In this document: piece after piece, positions 1 through 48,739 of the stretch
How positions within the stretch are numbered: position 1 is the first letter of the stretch
Layout: every line of letters starts with the position of its first letter
Assembly (NCBI RefSeq): GCF_003287495.1
Contig: NZ_PRLE01000003.1
Location: forward strand, 310,001 to 374,000
Origin: Faecalibacterium prausnitzii
Lineage (GTDB): Bacteria > Bacillota > Clostridia > Oscillospirales > Ruminococcaceae
Length of the DNA stretch: 64,000 nt
Direction: 5' to 3'
Notes under the pieces: model-generated
Database searches by the model: none
Seen by the model: the letters and a program-made list of their open reading frames with translations, nothing else
Told to the model about the DNA's origin: nothing
Position numbers and translations under genes: made by a program

Positions 1-268
1 CCATGATGATATTCATTTCCTCATCCGAAGCAGTCAGGAACAGAATCGGCACGTTGGATGTGCGCCGCACCTTCTGGCAGAAATCGAAGCCAGAGCCATC
101 CGGCAGGGAAACATCCAGCACCAGCAGGTCATATTTTCTGTCTGACCACAGCACCTCGGCTTCTGCCAGCGTCCGGGCTGTATCCAGTGCAAAACCCTGT
201 TTCTTGAATGCAAAGGTCAGCCCACTGATCAGGCTCAGATCATCTTCCAAAAGGAACAGTTTTCTCAT
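1..268 (-). CDS. Response regulator receiver domain, OmpR-type (partial, 3' end outside window)
   Basis: Only the first 89 codons are present; the gene runs off the left edge. The product starts MRKLFLLEDD, giving the acidic pair of a receiver domain; LLVLDVSLPDG carries the phospho-acceptor aspartate at about residue 54, and FLTAS the conserved Thr/Ser switch residue near 80. This is the N-terminal half of a two-component response regulator; the output domain is not visible, so OmpR-type is a guess from the receiver sequence. The ATG at 268 follows an AGAGAGGGA ribosome-binding site. A good promoter (316-344) lies upstream on the same strand. Whether it belongs to the adjacent mobile element or to the chromosome cannot be decided here. 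Confidence 0.85.
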   Translation of the reverse strand, partial: MRKLFLLEDDLSLISGLTFAFKKQGFALDTARTLAEAEVLWSDRKYDLLVLDVSLPDGSGFDFCQKVRRTSNVPILFLTASDEEMNIIM

Positions 269-315
269 GATTCCCTCTCTTTTCTGCATTTTGTGTGTCC
301 TACAGGTTCAAAAGC

Positions 316-25567: not shown

Positions 25568-25686
25568 AAAACCCAAAATCCCCCTCCGGCGCTTGCGGTA
25601 CACCGGAGGGGGATTTTGTTTGGGGTATTGCTTTGGTGTGAGGAGGAATCATGTGCAAGGGAGCGGTTGCGGCCCCGCGCCCTTGT
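25568..25686 (-). ncRNA. Candidate small RNA, copy 1
   Basis: About 119 bases read leftward. TATACT (25693-25698) precedes a 5' hairpin (CAAGGG.GCGG/CCGC.CCCTTG, loop GGCCGCAA), a linker CATGATTCCTCCTCAC containing CCTCCT (anti-Shine-Dalgarno), and a 3' hairpin (11-bp stem CGGAGGGGGAT, loop with ACCGCAAG) followed by a T-rich tract that can act as terminator. A homologous copy lies at 33.0 kb with changed but still paired stems and unchanged loops and linker. Plus strand also offers AGGAGG and a 27-codon frame, but the substitutions follow the RNA structure rather than codons. Confidence 0.65.
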
Positions 25687-25966
25687 GAGGATAGTATACC
25701 CGATTTCCGCACAAAAGTCATTACTTTCTTGTGAAAAATGTGTTAATTACCGAACGAAAATTTTTCGCTTTGTTTTCACACAAAAGTTTCTACCACAAGA
25801 AACCCCGCAGATGGATGCTGTTCCACCTGCGGGGTTGAGAGTTATTTTCTTTTACTGAGCATTGGCCATCCGAATAATCACATCGTAGGTATCTTCCACT
25901 TTCTTAACAGCGATCCCAACATGTGTGCGCCCGCTCGGTCATTTTGACGAGAACGGACGCGGTTTT
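25687..25966. other. Intergenic, sRNA promoter and a short frame fragment
   Basis: Holds the sRNA -10 (25693-25698). On the minus strand 25856-25927 reads HVGIAVKKVEDTYDVIIRMANAQ then stop, with no start codon or site; possibly a gene remnant. No other gene seen. Confidence 0.35.
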
Positions 25967-26488
25967 TCAGGTTCGTGCTTTTTGCGCCTCGGCGTGCGCC
26001 TTGCCCTCTTCCACGTAGCTTGCGGCGTTGGCGCGGTTGTGCTCCAGCTGCTCCGGGGTGATCTTCTTGATGACCCGGGCGGGGATGCCCACAGCCACGG
26101 AATCGTCCGGGATGACCATGCCCTCCGGCACCAGCGCCCCGGCCCCGATGATGCACCGCTTGCCCACCACGCTGTGGTTGAGCAGGGTGGCATGCATCCC
26201 GATGAGGCTGTCATCGCCCACGGTGCAGCCGTGCACCAGCGCGCAGTGGCCCACGGTGACGTTCCTGCCCAGCAGCACTTTCCCGCCCGCGTCGCAGTGG
26301 AGGACGGCATTGTCCTGGATGTTGGTGTTCTCGCCAATCGTCAGGGTACCGCTGTCGCCCCGGAGCACCGCCCCGTACCAGACCGTCGTGCCCGGCTTGA
26401 GGAGCACGTTGCCCTGCACGGTGGCGTTGTCCGCCACAAAGGCCGCCCCCTCGTCCCGGGGGCTTTTTCCACCAAAGGATAGGATCAT
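25967..26488 (-). CDS. Gamma-carbonic-anhydrase family hexapeptide-repeat protein
   Basis: 173 residues. Left-handed beta-helix repeats (NATVQGNVLL, TVWYGAVLRGDSGTLTIGENTNIQDNAVLH) with the metal-binding histidines in NAVLHCD, VTVGHCALVHGC (two His) as in YrdA/PaaY/CamH proteins. The C-terminal helix is LEHNRANAASYVEEGKAHA. Carbonic anhydrase activity is proven only for some members, so transferase-like or metal-binding roles remain possible. ATG 26488 follows AAAGGTGG. Confidence 0.88.
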   Translation of the reverse strand: MILSFGGKSPRDEGAAFVADNATVQGNVLLKPGTTVWYGAVLRGDSGTLTIGENTNIQDNAVLHCDAGGKVLLGRNVTVGHCALVHGCTVGDDSLIGMHATLLNHSVVGKRCIIGAGALVPEGMVIPDDSVAVGIPARVIKKITPEQLEHNRANAASYVEEGKAHAEAQKART

Positions 26489-26585
26489 TGTGAAAAACCA
26501 CCTTTCTCTTTTTCTTCATTTATGGTATTCTTTTATCAGTTACAGTTCAAGAGGAAGCTGAAAACTTCCGGAGGAGTTTTTTCCC

Positions 26586-27545
26586 ATGCACAAGCATTCC
26601 CTTTTTTGCCGGGCGGCGGCGCTGGTGCTCACCCTTGCCCTGACCGCGGCGCTGGCCCTGCCCGGCTTTGCCGCCGCCTACGCCATGCCCATCCAGACAG
26701 CCTATGACGCGGAGGCAGTCTATCTGTTTGACGCCAGCACGGGGGAGGCCCTTGTAGAGCAGAACCCGGATCAGGTGCGGCCCATTGCCAGCCTGACCAA
26801 GATGATGACCGCCCTGCTGGTACTGGAAAGCGGGGCCGACCTGAACGAGAGCATCCCCATCCCGGACAGCCTGACACCGGAGTTCCAAGCCATCCGGGCC
26901 AACCGGGGCCACACCATCGGCCTGCAGGCCGGGGAGAGCGTCCGCCGCCTCGACATGCTCTACGCCATGCTGGTGCCCAGCGCCAACGACGCGGCCAGCG
27001 TGCTGGCCAGCGACGCCGCCGGGGGAGACCTGGCCGCCTTTGCCGCCCGGATGAACGCCCGGGCCAGCCAGCTGGGCTGTACCAACACCCACTTTACCTG
27101 CCCCCACGGCCTGTACGACAACAACAACTACTCTACCGCCCGGGATCTGGCAAAGATCGCGCTGGCCTGCCACGCCAACGGTACTTACATGCAGGTAGCC
27201 AACACGGTGAGCTACACCCTGCCGGCCACCAATCTCCACCCGGCCCGGAACATCTCATCCACCAACCGGCTGCTCAAGCCGGGCAGTGCGTACTACCGCG
27301 GCTACGCGCAGGGGATGAAAACCGGCTTCACCACCCAGGCGGGCCGCTGCTTTGTCACCTTTGCCAGCCAGAACGGCCGGACTTACGGCCTTGTCATCTT
27401 AGGCTCCAACAGCCAGAATATCTTCCGGGAAGCCGCCGAGCTGTTCGACTGGGCATTCTCAAACCCCGACCTGCAGCCCAAGGCGGCGGCCCCCGAAACC
27501 AAAAAGCACTCGCTCTTCTCGTTCTGGCAGAACCTGCTGGGATGA
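26586..27545 (+). CDS. dacA: D-alanyl-D-alanine carboxypeptidase (S11), first of a tandem pair
   Basis: 319 residues with a signal peptide (FCRAAALVLTLALTAALALPGFA). S11 catalytic motifs: S-x-x-K in ASLTKMMT (Ser69, Lys72), S-x-N in PSANDAAS, K-T-G in MKTGFTTQAG. It trims the terminal D-Ala of peptidoglycan stem peptides outside the membrane. It lacks the C-terminal beta domain and membrane anchor present in the next gene, so it may be released or wall-associated. GGAGGAG precedes the ATG. The two genes are separated by only 25 bases and are clearly duplicates (shared YDMPIQT/YAMPIQT, LTKMMTALL, THFTC/TSFTC, LPATNLH). Confidence 0.93.
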   Translation: MHKHSLFCRAAALVLTLALTAALALPGFAAAYAMPIQTAYDAEAVYLFDASTGEALVEQNPDQVRPIASLTKMMTALLVLESGADLNESIPIPDSLTPEFQAIRANRGHTIGLQAGESVRRLDMLYAMLVPSANDAASVLASDAAGGDLAAFAARMNARASQLGCTNTHFTCPHGLYDNNNYSTARDLAKIALACHANGTYMQVANTVSYTLPATNLHPARNISSTNRLLKPGSAYYRGYAQGMKTGFTTQAGRCFVTFASQNGRTYGLVILGSNSQNIFREAAELFDWAFSNPDLQPKAAAPETKKHSLFSFWQNLLG

Positions 27546-27570
27546 TCTGATTCTTTGGGAGGATATGCTC

Positions 27571-28860
27571 ATGCAAACCACATCACTGTTCCGCCGGGCC
27601 GCCGCGCTGGCCCTGACCCTTGTGCTGGCCGTCTCGGCCTCACTGGCGGGCTTTGCCACCTACGACATGCCCATCCAGACCGTGAGCGATACCGAGTCGG
27701 TCTACCTGTTCAATCTGGACACGGGCAAGCCCATCCTGGACCAGAACGCCGGGCAGTCCCGCTACATTGCCAGCCTGACCAAAATGATGACGGCCCTGCT
27801 CTTTTTGGAGAGCGGCAAGGACCTGAACGAGGAGATCACCATTCCCACCAGCCTGACGCAGGAGTTCAAGGACATCCAGAACGCCAACGGCAGCACCATG
27901 AACCTCCGCATCGGGGAGACGGTGCGCCGCATGGACCTGCTGTACGGCCTGCTGGTGGCCAGCGCCAACGACGCGGCCAGCGTCATCGCCAGCGATGTCT
28001 CCGGCGGCAACCTGCCCGCCTTTGTCTCCATGATGAACCAGAAAGCCCAGGAGCTGGGCTGCACCGGCACCAGCTTTACCTGCGTGCACGGCCTGTATGA
28101 TTACGGCAATGTCTCCACGGCGGAAGACCTGGCCAAGATCGCCTCCGCCTGCTACGCCAACGAGACTTACATGCAGGTGGCCAACACCCAGAGCTACACT
28201 CTGCCCGCCACCAACCTGCATCAGAACGAGCGGGCCATCACCTCCACCAACCTCATGCTCAACCCGGAGTACGCCTATTACCGCGATTACATCCGTGGCA
28301 TGAAGACCGGCTTCACCACGCTGGCGGGCCGCTGCTTTGTCACCTTTGCGGAGAAAGACGGCCACACCTACGGCCTCGTCGTCCTGGGCTCTGACCTCGA
28401 TAACATCTACCGCGAGTGCGCGGAAATCCTCGATTGGGCTTTTGCCAGCTTCTCAGACCGCCAGCTGACCGACACCCAGACGGTGCTGACCACGGTGCCC
28501 CTGACCAAGTGCCGCAGTGAGGAAGCCGTGGAGCTCTACGCCGCCGAGCCTGTCAGCGGCTACGGCCACGCGGACGATCCGATCACTTATTCGTTCGAGG
28601 TGCCGGAAAACGTCTCCGCCACCGTGAAAGACAACGCCGTCATCGGCAGTGCCACCGTCTATCTGGACGGCTACGAGATCGGCACCGTGGACCTCGTGAC
28701 CCATCAGGAATATATCTCGGACTTTCGCACCGACCTCAAAACCACGCTGGAGCTTCTGGCGGCCCTCATCCTCATCTTAGCCGTCCTCAGCTTCGCCACC
28801 ATGGTCATGGGTGGAGGCTCGCTGAACCTCAGCCGCCGCCGCAAGACCCGCAGAAGATAA
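27571..28860 (+). CDS. dacA: D-alanyl-D-alanine carboxypeptidase (S11), membrane-anchored, second of a tandem pair
   Basis: 429 residues from ATG 27571, eight bases after GGGAGG; the in-frame ATG at 27565 is too close. Signal peptide, then S-x-x-K in ASLTKMMT, S-x-N in ASANDAAS, K-T-G in MKTGFTTLAG. After the catalytic domain there is a PBP5 C-terminal-like beta region (about 300-385) and a C-terminal hydrophobic helix (LELLAALILILAVLSFATMVM) ending in the basic RRRKTRRR, which would hold the enzyme at the membrane. The pair probably transcribes together and ends at the terminator at 28880. Confidence 0.93.
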   Translation: MQTTSLFRRAAALALTLVLAVSASLAGFATYDMPIQTVSDTESVYLFNLDTGKPILDQNAGQSRYIASLTKMMTALLFLESGKDLNEEITIPTSLTQEFKDIQNANGSTMNLRIGETVRRMDLLYGLLVASANDAASVIASDVSGGNLPAFVSMMNQKAQELGCTGTSFTCVHGLYDYGNVSTAEDLAKIASACYANETYMQVANTQSYTLPATNLHQNERAITSTNLMLNPEYAYYRDYIRGMKTGFTTLAGRCFVTFAEKDGHTYGLVVLGSDLDNIYRECAEILDWAFASFSDRQLTDTQTVLTTVPLTKCRSEEAVELYAAEPVSGYGHADDPITYSFEVPENVSATVKDNAVIGSATVYLDGYEIGTVDLVTHQEYISDFRTDLKTTLELLAALILILAVLSFATMVMGGGSLNLSRRRKTRRR

Positions 28861-28879
28861 TTTCTTTGATACAGCAAAA

Positions 28880-28909
28880 GCTGCCGCAGAAAAACGCGGC
28901 AGCTTTTTT
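28880..28909 (+). terminator. Terminator between dacA pair and holB
   Basis: GCTGCCGC/GCGGCAGC stem with an A-rich loop, then seven Ts; A-rich on the left, so also usable by convergent holB. Confidence 0.88.
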
Positions 28910-28915
28910 GATTTT

Positions 28916-29881
28916 TCAGAGCGTCCGGAACTTTGCGGCCAGCACCGACAGCGTGATCTTGGGGTTCACCTGCGTGGACAGATGCCAGATGGCCGTATCC
29001 GCCAATCCAAGGGCCTTACGGGCCGTTTCGCCCTGCACCGGGGAATGTTTGCTGCCCTGCACGCCGGCGGCCGCGGCGGCCCGGAAATCGGCCAGCAGGG
29101 CGGTGGCACCAGCCTTGTCTTTTTCGTATCCCGCCAGCAGCACGGCGGCGGCATAGCTGTCCCGGGCCTGTGCGGCCTTTGCCAGGGTCAGCGCCTGCTC
29201 CACCAGGGCCCGGCGGTCTTCGTCCCGGGCCGCCGCAAGCACCGTGCCAATGTGGCCGTCAAACAGCTCGCTGTAGAGGGCGGCGTCCTTTTTCTCCACG
29301 CCCCGCGCGGTGCAGTAGCGGGCACAGGCCTCCGGGGAGACCGGGGCCACCGCAAAGCTGATGCAGCGGCTCCGGATGGTGGGCAGCACGCCTGCCAGCG
29401 AATCTGCCGTCATGATAAAAAGCACGCCCTCGGGCGGCTCCTCCATCACCTTGAGCAGGGCGTTGGCCGATTCCTCATTCATCCGCTCCACATGGTAGAG
29501 CAGGACGGCACGGCCCTCCGCCGAGAGGCTGGTGTTGAAGATCTCGGTCCGCATGGCCTTGACCTGGCTGACGAGATACCGCCCGCCGGAGCCCATGCCC
29601 GTAATGGAAATGGCCTCCCGGACGATGCCTGTCTCCACCCGGCCGCTGTCACGGTCGCCGGGCTTGCCCACGGCGCGGCAGCACTCGCCCCGCAGCAGGG
29701 CCTCGGCAGGCGCTCCGCCTGCGGGGTAGAGGTAATCGGCCGCCACGCAGCGGGCCGCAAAGCCCGCGCCCAGCCCCTCTTCGCCCACCAGCAGGAGGCT
29801 GTGGGTCATCCGGCGGCTGTCCAGCATCATGCGGACGCTCTTTTTCAGCTCCGCGTTGCCCTCGATCCGGTCGATCATCAT
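28916..29881 (-). CDS. holB: DNA polymerase III delta-prime subunit
   Basis: 321 residues. Clamp-loader ATPase-like fold: LLLVGEEGLGAGFAAR at the P-loop position, YHVERMNEESANALLKVMEEPPEGVLFIMTAD and PTIRSRC, the SRC motif of delta-prime. The P-loop lacks the GKT/S lysine and the zinc-binding cysteine set is reduced, fitting a non-hydrolysing stator. The ATG overlaps the stop codon of the rhomboid-like gene (ATGATG/TGA), implying coupling. Frames open further upstream are shadows of that gene. Confidence 0.88.
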   Translation of the reverse strand: MMIDRIEGNAELKKSVRMMLDSRRMTHSLLLVGEEGLGAGFAARCVAADYLYPAGGAPAEALLRGECCRAVGKPGDRDSGRVETGIVREAISITGMGSGGRYLVSQVKAMRTEIFNTSLSAEGRAVLLYHVERMNEESANALLKVMEEPPEGVLFIMTADSLAGVLPTIRSRCISFAVAPVSPEACARYCTARGVEKKDAALYSELFDGHIGTVLAAARDEDRRALVEQALTLAKAAQARDSYAAAVLLAGYEKDKAGATALLADFRAAAAAGVQGSKHSPVQGETARKALGLADTAIWHLSTQVNPKITLSVLAAKFRTL

Positions 29882-30516
29882 CGTCTGTTTTTCCTCTTCC
29901 ACTGCTCCCGGCGGATCCATGCCCGGACACTGCGGGCAGCCTGCGGGCCAAAGAACGCCGCAAAGCCCACCATGCAGAGCAGATAATTCAGCTTGCCCAG
30001 CGGGGCAGCCGTCAGGAAGCTGAACACCCAGAGCGCCGCCGCGAACAGGCCAAAATACTTCACCCGCACCGGGATGACGAAAAAGAGCAGCACCTGCACC
30101 TCCGGGTAGAGCATGGCAAAGGCCAGCAGGAGAGAGAGGGAGAGACAGTAGGTGTCTGCCCAACCCGTGCACAGGCAGGCCAGCACCGCCCCCAGCATCC
30201 CCAGCAGGAGATAGAGGTTAAAGCGGAAATCGCCCCACTCTTTTTCCAGTGCCGTGCCGATGAACCAGGTGAAGTAGATGCCCAAAACCACGCTCAGCGG
30301 CCCGCCGCCCGAGAACGGCACAAACATAAACGTGATGACCCGCCAGATCTGGCCCGCCAGCAGAGCGCCACGGTCCAGATTGAGGTAGAACGAAATATAC
30401 TGGTTGACAAACAGCTCCACTGCATAGACCAGGATCTGACCGCCGATCAGAATGGAGATCAGGTTGGGGATGCAATAGCGGCCAAATTTCCGCTCCAGCT
30501 TGGTGATCCAGTTCAT
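29878..30516 (-). CDS. Rhomboid-like polytopic membrane protein
   Basis: 212 residues, about six membrane segments, starting at ATG 30516 after GGAGG. IWRVITFMFVPFS and GTALEKEWGDFRFNLYLL match the L1 and TM2 regions of rhomboids, but at the site of the catalytic G-x-S-G the sequence reads GMLGAVLACL with no serine, and no catalytic His is apparent. It is therefore probably an inactive pseudoprotease or Derlin-like protein. Translationally coupled to holB. Confidence 0.7.
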   Translation of the reverse strand: MNWITKLERKFGRYCIPNLISILIGGQILVYAVELFVNQYISFYLNLDRGALLAGQIWRVITFMFVPFSGGGPLSVVLGIYFTWFIGTALEKEWGDFRFNLYLLLGMLGAVLACLCTGWADTYCLSLSLLLAFAMLYPEVQVLLFFVIPVRVKYFGLFAAALWVFSFLTAAPLGKLNYLLCMVGFAAFFGPQAARSVRAWIRREQWKRKNRR

Positions 30517-30695
30517 AGGCAAACGCCTCCGTGTTTTAAATTTTGCGGCCCGTTTTCTGAGAGCCTTTCTGCACACCATTGTATCATGTTTGCCCACGCC
30601 ATTCAAGAAAATCCCTGCGAGAGTTTGCGGCAGAGAACGGCCCTGCCGCCCGTTTCTTTCCCGCGTTTTATCCCCACTGGAATCATCTTTTAACT

Positions 30696-30780
30696 TTTTC
30701 CACCGGGTTTTCCACTGGATTTGTGAAAAAGAAGCGGGGTTTCCCACAGTGTTTTCCACTTTTTCCACCGAGTTTTCCAC
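30696..30780. repeat. Cluster of TTTTCCAC (DnaA-box-like) octamers
   Basis: Five direct copies of TTTTCCAC (30696, 30708, 30752, 30761, 30773) plus TTTCCCAC at 30740 lie in 85 bases; another copy is at 30964. They differ from the DnaA box TTATCCACA at one or two bases and match motifs around dnaA. The surrounding gene-free stretch 30517-31027 holds no recognised gene. Confidence 0.5.
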
Positions 30781-31027
30781 CGTTTTGGAAGCGTTCCGTT
30801 ATACCTGTTGTATTCTTCCAGGCGGATGCTGGAAGCTTTTGGGGAGAAATGGAGGGATTTTTTCTTTTTTCCAAAAGAAAGTCGAGGGCAAAAATTTATT
30901 TTTCGAGGCTTTCCGCACCGGGGTGTTTTCAGCCTCTCCAATCTGGAATTTTTGAGGCGGCAGTTTTCCACAGGGAAGAAAAGCAAAAACGTCCTGTTGA
31001 AAAGAGAGGGAAAACTCCGGTTTTACC

Positions 31028-31069
31028 AAAAAAAAGAAGCTTCGATGAACCCCACCGAAGCTTCTTTTT
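31028..31069 (-). terminator. Terminator of mgtE
   Basis: GAAGCTTCG/CGAAGCTTC stem with T runs on both sides. Confidence 0.88.
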
Positions 31070-31074
31070 GAGAA

Positions 31075-32646
31075 TCACATCATATTCCTGAACACCAGCT
31101 GTGCGATCTGGAAATACAGGATCAAACTGCACGCATCCACGATGGTGGTGATGAACGGCGTTGCCATAATGGCCGGGTCAGCACCCAGCTTCTTGGCGGC
31201 CAGCGGCAGCATACCGCCCACCAGCTTTGCCAGGATGACGCTGAAGAACAGCGACACGCTGACCACAACGGCATAGCCAAGGACATTCTCGTACTGCCCG
31301 GCGTACAGGAACGTGTACATCAGGTAGATGCGCAGGCCGTTCACGATGCCCAGCACGGCGCCCACAATGGCGGAAACACGCATCTCCTTGCCCAGCACAC
31401 GGAGAAAATCGCTGGGCTCCACTTCGCCCAGCGCCAGTCCGCGGACCATCAGGGTGCTGATCTGGTTGCCGCAGTTGCCGGCGGTGTCCATCAGCATGGG
31501 CATGAACGAGACCAACAGGGGCAGACTGACGAATGCTTCCTCATAATGGGTGGTGACCATGCCGGTAAAGGTTGCCGAAAGCATCAAAATCAGCAGCCAG
31601 GGGATACGCTGCTTGGCGTGGGTCCAGACGCTGGTACCAAAATAAGTCGTGGCATCGTCGTCCGGCAGAATAGCCGCCATCTTCTGCATATCCTCGGTGG
31701 ACTCGTCGGTCAGGACATCGATTGCATCGTCGATGGTGATGATACCCACGAACATCCCCTCGTTGTCCACAACGGGCATGGCGGTAAAGTCGTAGCGCTG
31801 CATCTCACGGGCCACATACTCCTGGTCATCCGTGACTTTCACCGTGACCACGTTGTCGTCCATGATCTCGGTCACCGGGGTTTTGGGTTCTGCCAGCAGC
31901 AGGCTGCGGGCAGACACAACGCCCAGCAGACGGTTCCGCTCGACGACATAGCAGGTGTAAACGGTCTCGGCGCTCTCGCCCTGGGTGCGGATGGCTCCAA
32001 AGGCGTCGTTCACGGTCATATCCTTGCGCAGGCGGACATATTCCGGCGTCATCAGGCTGCCGGCGGAGCTCTCGGGGTAGTTCAGCAGCTTGTTCAGGCT
32101 CTCACGGGTCTGCTTGGAGGATTTCTCCAGCACCCGCTTGACCACGCCGGCCGGCATATCTTCCAGCAGGTCCGCGGCATCGTCCAGGCTCATCTCTTCA
32201 ATGGCGCTGACCAGTTCCACATCCGAGAAGGCGTTGACCAGATCGTCACGGGCCTCATCGGACATATAGGCGAACGCCTCGGTCGCCACCTCTTTTTTCA
32301 GCAGGCGGAACACCACCAGACGGTTGTTCTCATCCAGCTCTTCCAGCAGTTCTGCCAGGTCGGCGGGCTGCTCTTCCTCCGTCACTTCGCGCAGCTTGAC
32401 GTACTGCTTTTTCACCAGCAGCTTGAGCAGGCGGCTCTTGGTCAGCATCTCGGGGTCAGCCTTGACCTCCTCGTCGTTGGCCTCCTCTTTTTCCGCCTCC
32501 CGGATGTCCTGCTTGAGGTCTTCGGTGGCCTCTTCGTTCAGGTCTTCGGCCAGCTTCTGGCGCACCTCCGCGGGGATATCCGCGGGCAGCTCCTGCACCG
32601 GGAGGGATGCTTCCCCCTCCGGAACCGCTTTTTTCTTTTCTTCCAT
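31075..32646 (-). CDS. mgtE: Magnesium transporter MgtE
   Basis: 523 residues. Acidic N-terminal linker (1-70), MgtE N domain (superhelical; LAELLEELDENNRLVVFRLL to LLEDMPAGVVKRVLE), two CBS domains (MTPEYVRLRKDMTV; MDDNVVTVKVTDDQEY, TAMPVVDNEGMFVGIITIDD) and a C-terminal membrane domain with PLLVSFMPMLMDTAGNCGNQ, the selectivity region. The N and CBS domains sense Mg2+ and close the channel. GGAGGAG precedes ATG 32646. A 280-base leader with inverted repeats separates the gene from its promoter. Confidence 0.95.
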   Translation of the reverse strand: MEEKKKAVPEGEASLPVQELPADIPAEVRQKLAEDLNEEATEDLKQDIREAEKEEANDEEVKADPEMLTKSRLLKLLVKKQYVKLREVTEEEQPADLAELLEELDENNRLVVFRLLKKEVATEAFAYMSDEARDDLVNAFSDVELVSAIEEMSLDDAADLLEDMPAGVVKRVLEKSSKQTRESLNKLLNYPESSAGSLMTPEYVRLRKDMTVNDAFGAIRTQGESAETVYTCYVVERNRLLGVVSARSLLLAEPKTPVTEIMDDNVVTVKVTDDQEYVAREMQRYDFTAMPVVDNEGMFVGIITIDDAIDVLTDESTEDMQKMAAILPDDDATTYFGTSVWTHAKQRIPWLLILMLSATFTGMVTTHYEEAFVSLPLLVSFMPMLMDTAGNCGNQISTLMVRGLALGEVEPSDFLRVLGKEMRVSAIVGAVLGIVNGLRIYLMYTFLYAGQYENVLGYAVVVSVSLFFSVILAKLVGGMLPLAAKKLGADPAIMATPFITTIVDACSLILYFQIAQLVFRNMM

Positions 32647-32926
32647 GTTTGCTCCTCCTCTCGTGTTCCAAGGCTGGGGAGGATGCAGCAAACCGCATCA
32701 CAAAAGCGCCGCTCTGGTGCACTGCCGCGCGTAAAAACACGGATCATGCGCACAAAGCCGCGCCCTTTTGCTCCGGAAGCTTCCGCTTACACGGGGTTCC
32801 GGCCCAAAAAGGCGAACGCAGCTGTTTTTGTTCTCCGATCTGCCGCATCGTTCCATCGTCTTCGACTATGATCCGGGTCCATTGTTCTGCGTTCACCTCC
32901 TGGGGCTGCTAAAAAACTTAACTTAC
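32647..32926 (-). promoter_or_regulatory. Long structured 5' leader of mgtE, candidate cis-regulatory RNA
   Basis: Within the leader GTGAACGCAG (32887-32896) pairs with CTGCGTTCGC (32812-32821); nested inside are CCGGATC/GATCGG and a hairpin CATAGTC-GAA-GACGATG (32854-32870). Later a CGGAAGCTTCCG palindrome occurs. It does not fit the M-box consensus known to me. A 31-codon frame (32787-32882) starting MDPDHSRRRW lies inside, 13 bases after AGGAGG; a leader peptide is possible. Confidence 0.45.
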
Positions 32927-32932
32927 AGATTT

Positions 32933-32961
32933 ATTATAGCGCCGTAAAAAAGCAGGGTCAA
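32933..32961 (-). promoter_or_regulatory. Promoter of mgtE
   Basis: Minus strand TTGACC (32956-32961), 17-base spacer, TATAAT (32933-32938). Confidence 0.7.
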
Positions 32962-33000
32962 CCCTAAAAGCGCCGAATTATAAAACGGAAATCCTGTACC

Positions 33001-33120
33001 AAAAAGCAAAACGCCCTTTCCAGCGCTTGCGGTACACTGGAAAAGGCGTTCTGTTTTTGGATATTGCCTTGGTGAGGAGGAATCATGTACAAGGAATCGG
33101 TTGCGGCCCCGGTTCCTTAT
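33001..33120 (-). ncRNA. Candidate small RNA, copy 2
   Basis: About 120 bases read leftward from just after TATACT (33127-33132). 5' hairpin AAGGAACCGG/CCGATTCCTT with loop GGCCGCAA, linker CATGATTCCTCCTCAC, second hairpin (stem ACGCC..TTCCA, loop containing TACCGCAAG) and a TTTTGCTTTTT tail. Aligns along its full length with copy 1; stems differ by paired changes while loops, linker and -10 are retained. Sits between the mgtE promoter and the nifJ side, convergent with nothing. Confidence 0.65.
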
Positions 33121-33132
33121 GACAGCAGTATA

Positions 33133-33649
33133 GCAGGTTTCACATTTGATTTCATGAAGAAGCTATGAAAAAACTGTAAAAAGCGTCTTGCACACTATTT
33201 TTCACATTTTTATCGCATTTTCGCACAAAAATACGCCCCATTCACTGTTGCCAGTGGATGGGGCGCTAAAAACGCAATTGTTTTTACTGCGGCAAGATGC
33301 CTGTTTTCACAGGTCTTATGCAGCAGGCGGAACAAGGTATCTGCAAGCAGACCTTATGCTCCTGACACACGCGGGGTGTGCTTTCAAGGACCCTCGCGGG
33401 CGCTTTGGTATTTCAGACATCCTGCCCTGCACCCTGTTCGCGTACAGCGTGCAGGCGGATGGTTTGAAATCAGATGCTTTGCGACGAACAAAGCGTGCTC
33501 GAGTTTGTACTCAAAATCAAAAGCCGTTTATGCTCAGAGGTTCACAGTTTCGCACTGCTGCGTTGCGCAGTAACCGCCAGTACGGAGCCGCCGCCTTTCG
33601 GACTGAGGGGCCGCTGCAAAAGCTTTGAGCAGGCAGTCCGGCAGAAAGA
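33133..33649. other. Gene-poor stretch downstream of nifJ
   Basis: About 500 bases with only short frames that lack start sites and family resemblance. Local inverted repeats (CAGTGGATGGGGCGC, AGGACCCTCGCGGGCGC area) are weak. No terminator for nifJ is obvious. It may be decayed mobile or coding DNA. Confidence 0.4.
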
Positions 33650-48342: not shown

Positions 48343-48739
48343 CTTGGTTTCTCTCCTTTTTTCGGATGGTATCGGAGAAAGCTGCCCCAAAAGCGGTGGA
48401 CATTTTCTCTCGATCTATATTGAACTTGTTGTAGTAACCGTAGTAGGGAGTGGGGAACTTGTGGAAAACTCCGGAATGTCTTGGCGGGATGCCGGGGTTT
48501 CGGTTTCCACGGGTTTGTGAATCGGGTGTGAAAGAAATGTTGAAATGGGGAAGCCGCGGGTTCTTTCCACTTCCCATGTGGAATCTGAGCGTTGAATGTT
48601 GAAAACTCCGTGGAAAGAGTGGAAAGATTCGGCCCAAAACCACTATATCTTGTTCTGTTTTGCACCAATTGTGCGTAAAACTCCCCATATTTTGGGTTTT
48701 ATCCCCCTTAAAAGTCGGACTTTTCAGCCCGCGCGGGTG
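48343..48739. other. dnaA-dnaN intergenic region, part of the origin
   Basis: 397 bases without a gene. Contains TGTGGAAAA (48460-48468, one mismatch to the DnaA box complement) and several weaker GTGGAAAG/TTTCCAC motifs, with AT-rich patches near 48640-48710. Probably one of the two DnaA-box clusters flanking dnaA. Confidence 0.45.

Follow-up and report, generated by a model that had tools for sequence, protein, structure and literature searches.

Two similar segments lie on the minus strand of a 64,000-nt stretch of the Faecalibacterium prausnitzii genome (assembly GCF_003287495.1, contig NZ_PRLE01000003.1, positions 310,001 to 374,000; the whole stretch is referred to as the window), and they raise the question of whether they encode a small RNA (sRNA), what would control its synthesis and on what it would act. 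The layout of the segments, their homologues and their promoters point to an answer that we regard as probable, if well short of certain: a two-component-induced, trans-acting sRNA of ~120 nt, which would be produced from two loci of this genome and block translation initiation without Hfq. Specifically, a kinase would sense a stress, probably at the cell envelope, and the response regulator (228 aa, with its own gene behind the same repeats) would bind the repeats in front of the RNA and switch it on. The linker of the RNA would then pair with the translation start regions of target mRNAs and keep ribosomes from binding, while a GCCGCAA loop may provide a second contact, to an RNA or a protein. 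A two-component sensor thus seems to turn on the sRNA, which probably keeps chosen genes from being translated.

Each minus-strand segment is, as far as can be read from the sequence, a compact transcription unit composed of a box of phased repeats, a TATACT site, a 5' hairpin, a linker and a terminator. In the two copies, termed A and B, these parts are located as follows.

25708..25746, minus strand: copy A regulator box, TTAACA-N5-TTCACA-N5-GTAATG-N5-TGTGCG, ending 9 bp before the -10 site; last two repeats degenerate
25693..25698, minus strand: copy A -10 site TATACT, from direct sequence reading and promoter comparison
25656..25685, minus strand: copy A 5' hairpin P1 with loop GGCCGCAA, from covariation and folding
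25638..25654, minus strand: copy A linker ACATGATTCCTCCTCAC, predicted to be open, antisense of a Shine-Dalgarno sequence, AATC and AUG, from motif search and folding
25568..25617, minus strand: copy A terminator hairpin (loop TACCGCAAG) and T tract, from sequence and folding
33142..33180, minus strand: copy B regulator box, TTTACA-N5-TTCATA-N5-TTCATG-N5-AAATGT, ending 9 bp before the -10 site; last repeat degenerate
33127..33132, minus strand: copy B -10 site TATACT, from direct sequence reading and promoter comparison
33089..33120, minus strand: copy B 5' hairpin P1 with loop GGCCGCAA, from covariation and folding
33072..33088, minus strand: copy B linker ACATGATTCCTCCTCAC, predicted to be open, from motif search
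33001..33052, minus strand: copy B terminator hairpin (loop TACCGCAAG) and T tract, from sequence and folding

The original prediction, made from the letters of the window, had proposed an RNA family with this layout, and direct reading of the coordinates agrees with it. The loops GGCCGCAA and TACCGCAAG and the linker are identical between copies A and B, the stems differ in sequence and keep their pairing in both, and a hairpin plus T tract closes each copy (25617-25568 and 33052-33001). Two details need amending. A gap of six bases between TATACT and the first stem, proposed for both copies, is found in copy B (6 nt) but not in copy A (7 nt), and at the end of the identical stretch copy B is two bases shorter (CACC for CACACC).

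Distribution of the RNA family

The 17-mer linker, searched with at most one mismatch, is present in 30 of the 31 genomes of the genus Faecalibacterium, 23 of the 31 having exactly two matches, and the sole genome without it is 89% complete. Within the taxonomic family, the motif matched in 63 of 396 genomes, or in 60 after removal of three chance matches lacking the hairpin (G333, G082 and G081; loci L099, L105 and L107), which we dropped for having no CCGCA before the motif and scores of at most 14.8 bits. Of the 109 motif places in loci L001-L110, just four are without an upstream CCGCA, namely the three chance matches and a cut-off copy (L028); the sets of 99, 103 and 89 sequences used below are what was left once duplicate rows and copies lying too close to the end of a contig had been taken out as well. 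The genera among the matches listed (80 of 118 stretches) are Faecalibacterium, Gemmiger, Fournierella, Anaerofilum, Pygmaiobacter, Ruthenibacterium and Subdoligranulum. Eleven of the 80 listed stretches belong to unrelated groups; all of these were scored and rejected as members outside the clade, the best reaching 20.1 bits (L186, E 0.0067) as compared to 36-95 bits for members.

A covariance model search, proposed as a check in the original prediction, returned many copies: with the model of hairpin and linker, 96 of 99 sources gave a total of 97 matching places, of which the window accounts for two. Copies A and B are its only matches in the window (E ≤ 0.01) and also in the host genome (E ≤ 0.001), and an order-level search with strict filters matched 3 of 295 genomes, each of which belongs to Faecalibacterium. 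The three unmatched sources are loci from one genus (L050-L052), which carry the motif and CCGCA and were kept as divergent; in these, the linker motif is followed by a GGTCTAA(T/A)GACCC hairpin in place of the usual ACACCAAAG stretch. The family had not been recognised from the sequence, and it is indeed absent from Rfam 15, where only a tRNA matched in the window at the curated gathering score and none of the ten matches in eight loci at E ≤ 1 overlaps the RNA.

Covariation and coding potential

The fold of the two copies is not due to chance, given folding z-scores of -7.1 and -6.1 relative to 200 mononucleotide shuffles. The covarying stems first noticed between the two copies recur in the 5' hairpin of larger sets. 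In a seed of 19 sequences, hand-picked from those that MAFFT aligned in register, 9 of 11 pairs show changes on both sides, and 87.1% of the pair cells pair, as compared to 72.2% after shuffling and 35-42% after sliding. For 74 distinct homologues, whose alignment was fitted to the structure by the model and is hence biased towards it, standard pairs occupy 89.4% of pair cells (70.4% shuffled, 30-53% slid), and 166 cells are changed on both sides versus 52 in shuffles. A weak measure in the same set is how many pairs show any double change: 10 do so against 8.4 in shuffles, and 36 of 500 shuffles reach the true value.

The larger sets also bear on whether the element codes for protein, either in a short plus-strand frame that begins at GAGGAGGAATC-ATG or in a sense-strand frame that begins at ATGATTCCT. 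The plus-strand ATG does stand behind a good ribosome-binding site, and a frame of 27 aa, the commonest length, recurs in 16 of 89 copies. However, the plus-strand frames in these 89 sequences vary between 1 and 432 aa in length, the frame in which the conserved loop would be translated is not constant (1, 2 and 0 in 48, 21 and 20 sequences, respectively), and the sense-strand frame meets no stop within 50 codons in 41 of the 89. The codon-level conservation of the plus strand that the original prediction had named as its own refutation was thus looked for and not found, and both the plus-strand small protein and a sense-strand leader peptide were rejected. Since pairing is moreover preserved through the changes in the stems, and the regulator box and -10 site are both oriented to the minus strand, we regard coding as highly improbable.

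A phased repeat box and its candidate regulator

Upstream of 103 copies, TTNAYA repeats follow each other in 11-bp steps, and the box ends 9 bp before the -10 site. This phased box, which had escaped the original prediction, links the RNA to a two-component system. The two-repeat pattern TTHAYR-N5-TTHAYR matches 91 of the 103 homologous promoters; in 36 non-redundant sites, the second repeat begins with TTC in 33 and the first has T at its third base in 23, with a weaker third and a weak fourth repeat. Where the pattern is present (85 copies), repeat 2 lies 31 bp from the -10 site in 67 and 24 bp from it in 3, with no recognisable -10 in 15, and a distance of 31 bp places the fourth repeat 9 bp before the -10 site. 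To judge from this arrangement, the phased repeats are what stands in for the -35 region of the promoter. Phased repeats with this spacing to the -10 site are the layout of OmpR-family activators. A comparable repeat layout before the -10 site is described for the CiaR promoters of the streptococcal csRNAs (CiaR-dependent small RNAs; PMC3091779).

A search for the box in 15 genomes returned the RNA promoters, tatA (in two Faecalibacterium genomes, one tatA being named by likeness), a CBS-domain gene and an hsp20 gene, the boxes of these three genes lying 9-10 bp from a -10-like site; the remaining matches were judged weak. The tatA and hsp20 boxes hint at envelope or protein-export stress as the signal. 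At positions 48516-48543 of the window (minus strand), TCAACA-N5-TTCACA-N5-TTCACA is located ~125 bp before a DNA polymerase III beta-subunit gene (Pfam), and genome G003 has similar repeats before what reads as the same gene. We recognised no -10 at the right distance for the repeats in the window, which are perhaps origin-region sequence and not a box of this regulator.

The candidate regulator of the host is an OmpR-type protein of 228 aa, encoded ~8 kb from tatA; next comes the gene of a histidine kinase of 512 aa, which contains a HAMP domain. Among 27 Trans_reg_C matches in two genomes, only the two orthologues of this one regulator have a box upstream at p<0.02. Across genomes, 16 of its 22 orthologues have the box upstream at this threshold, with one more at p 0.022, as compared to none of 25 genes for other OmpR-type regulators, among which p is 0.11 at the lowest; these p-values are not strictly alike, the 25 having been assessed by a fixed upstream offset and 300 shuffles and the 22 by match starts and 500 shuffles. 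Two paralogues of the regulator likewise have no box at p<0.02. The regulator is 75-100% identical in all 22 genomes carrying the RNA, while in seven genomes without the RNA the best match is 50-54% identical in six and no match is found at E ≤ 1e-60 in one. A second OmpR-type response-regulator gene straddles the start of the window (1-289, minus strand; domain G000:C13:309600-309821) and has no box (p 0.74).

TTNACA repeats at 11 bp are also known as the PhoB/PhoP boxes of Bacillus, and under this regulator the RNA would be a phosphate-starvation sRNA. The frequent T in the first repeat fits this idea, as do TTTACA-N5-TTTACA sequences in some pstS promoters of these genomes and linker matches at the start regions of two Na/Pi cotransporter genes (G166 and G006). 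In addition, the best NCBIfam model for the candidate regulator is PhoB, at 214.8 bits versus a cut-off of 296.2, and it might itself be PhoB-like. However, the TTC of the second repeat in the RNA promoters contrasts with TTT in the pst repeats seen, and an OmpR-type regulator of G061, encoded 4 kb from pstS, has no box upstream (L354, p 0.16). The pst form is related but different: a crude search interval, which missed at least the box of L245, gave a TTTACA-N5-TTTACA-like box in 4 of 13 pst loci. Control by phosphate starvation seems unlikely to us.

The linker and its possible targets

The linker is the exact antisense of GUGAGGAGGAAUCAUGU, which comprises a Shine-Dalgarno sequence, the four-base spacer AATC and the start codon AUG. 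An sRNA able to bind ribosome-binding sites, as originally proposed from the complementarity to AGGAGG alone, is thereby supported and extended, the predicted complement being AGGAGG-AATC-AUG. For a linker of this kind, blocking of translation start sites would be the simplest mechanism.

The conservation of the RNA admits another partner, such as the CCGCAA-binding protein that the original prediction had offered as an alternative. The 15-mer CATGATTCCTCCTCA is exact in all 105 true judgeable places, although the searches tolerated one mismatch, and CCGCA lies upstream of the linker in all 105; GCCGCA is present in the 5' part of 97 of 99 copies and a second CCGCA in the terminator part of 89. 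Such an invariant linker exceeds what varied targets would require, and together with the repeated loops it could bind a protein instead of mRNA starts, making the RNA a decoy that sequesters this protein, as CsrB-type RNAs do. We consider a decoy doubtful, because a letter-for-letter antisense of Shine-Dalgarno, spacer and AUG would be an improbable coincidence for a protein site and because the second CCGCA is missing in 10 of the 99 copies.

In the host genome, allowing up to three mismatches, one place apart from the RNA copies is complementary to the linker, and a signal peptidase gene starts there (UUGCGGAGGAAUUAUGU). Downstream of this gene (Peptidase_S26; L003 1514-3016, plus strand, G000:C12) is a long frame whose translation resembles a surface protein. 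At most one mismatch in 22 genomes gave 57 start-like places, of which 28 are the RNA copies themselves and 29 are other places; a reversed-pattern control gave 7, but is not a fair control for good ribosome-binding sites in general. The genes at the 29 places (Pfam) include the two Na/Pi cotransporters, KhpB/Jag (G088), a HAAS protein (G163), DUF308 proteins and a host sigma-70 factor. Since the leaders of the DUF308 cases (G248, G038 and G042; one of the three scanned) are near-identical, these may be transferred elements. Duplex energies of copy A with ten chosen starts range from -19.2 to -28.8 kcal/mol, and the best of 35 start-like sites in the window reaches -23.1; an eleventh chosen start was not located for scoring, and for L320, which is among the ten, the true linker was outscored by the best of 200 shuffled ones.

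Within the clade of the RNA, Hfq had no match in any of the 16 carriers tested, and it was matched in all three genomes tested that are without the RNA. The RNA thus probably works independently of Hfq or relies on a different partner. It is tempting to speculate further that the invariant linker mimics the anti-Shine-Dalgarno sequence of 16S rRNA, with an anti-AUG added, and competes at translation starts in general instead of serving a few mRNAs, as a stress-released, partial, sequence-graded brake on translation. We hold this to be quite improbable; if true, genes with GGAGG-AATC-AUG starts would be affected first, in bacteria without detectable Hfq.

Several observations weigh against a two-component-induced sRNA that blocks chosen starts. 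The predicted targets differ between genomes and are not conserved, for which reason we claim none of them, and the ten scored start sites were picked by the very motif they are scored on. Variant copies with an altered linker end (CCTTTAC) exist, and the mean predicted unpairedness of the linker over 96 sequences is 0.81, versus 0.80 for a shuffled linker. As for the regulator, no significant box precedes 5 of the 22 orthologues (G020, G166, G055, G071 and G048; p 0.23-0.79), and the box is not special to carriers, being found also before the 50-54% identical homologues in RNA-less genomes (p<0.02 in 3 of 6). Of 101 NCBIfam models, the 25 listed all score the regulator below their cut-offs, PhoB as the best included. 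Finally, the co-occurrence of regulator and RNA tracks one clade and may have descent alone as its cause. The family nevertheless offers a concrete pair of regulator and RNA in one of the main commensals of the human gut, and the regulator, the box and the RNA are each open to a separate test.

Genomic neighbourhoods of the copies

Copy A adjoins a biotin ligase gene or the neighbouring phosphoesterase gene (Pfam) in Faecalibacterium, and the same neighbourhood is found in Fournierella, Gemmiger, Anaerofilum and Ruthenibacterium. Copy B is located between the pyruvate:ferredoxin oxidoreductase and mgtE genes (Pfam), among the loci examined only within the genus. The comparison used 11 genes of the window, and 37 loci have none of these as a neighbour. 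A third copy type with the linker CATGATTCCTCCTTTAC and its own repeats and terminator is found in G006 and G027 (L324 1400-1580; L337 695-880), and another type, ending in CAT, in several other species. From the spread of the copy A neighbourhood over several genera, the restriction of that of copy B to Faecalibacterium and the further types elsewhere, copy A looks ancestral and copy B duplicated. Two adjacent genes of the D-Ala-D-Ala carboxypeptidase family (Peptidase_S11; window 26586-28860, plus strand) lie next to copy A, and their relatives remain close to it in many Faecalibacterium loci.

Comparison with known systems

Among the titles returned by searches of the open-access literature, none concerns an sRNA of Faecalibacterium. 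The closest parallels come from Streptococcus, which belongs to another class of Firmicutes, and from Listeria. As presented in PMC3091779, the streptococcal csRNAs depend on CiaR, have two stem-loops around an unpaired linker complementary to the Shine-Dalgarno sequence and AUG, and show surprising sequence diversity; a Streptococcus host of csRNAs is described as lacking Hfq (PMC7196914). The Faecalibacterium RNA resembles them, in so far as these sources describe them, in its two stem-loops flanking a predicted-open linker complementary to Shine-Dalgarno and start codon, in its multiple copies, in direct repeats of the response-regulator type, separated by N5 and located ~10 bp upstream of the -10 site, and in its Hfq-less host. 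However, the CiaR box TTTAAG-N5-TTTAAG occurs in 0 of 99 copies, either exactly or with one mismatch per half, and the nonamer [A/C]UCCUAAA[A/C] is exact in 0 of 99 and present with one mismatch in 3. The RNA also has an added conserved GCCGCA loop and a nearly invariant linker, in contrast to the diverse csRNAs. Because these two defining features of csRNAs, the box and the nonamer, are absent, we set the RNA apart: by analogy, it is a separate, unlisted family that would work like a csRNA.

LhrC of Listeria is, according to PMC4132741, multicopy, LisRK-dependent and linked to envelope stress, impedes translation and is Hfq-independent on its target, which it binds through three redundant CU-rich motifs. 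The Faecalibacterium RNA would share with it the multiple copies, two-component control, a motif repeated in loop and terminator, the proposed translation block and, probably, independence of Hfq, whereas its repeated loop motif is CCGCAA and only its linker is CU-rich. The LisR consensus had not been identified as of that paper, and the LisR box is hence not comparable. Taken together with the csRNAs and LhrC, the RNA described here suggests that two-component systems have more than once recruited RNAs that are present in several copies and block translation starts.

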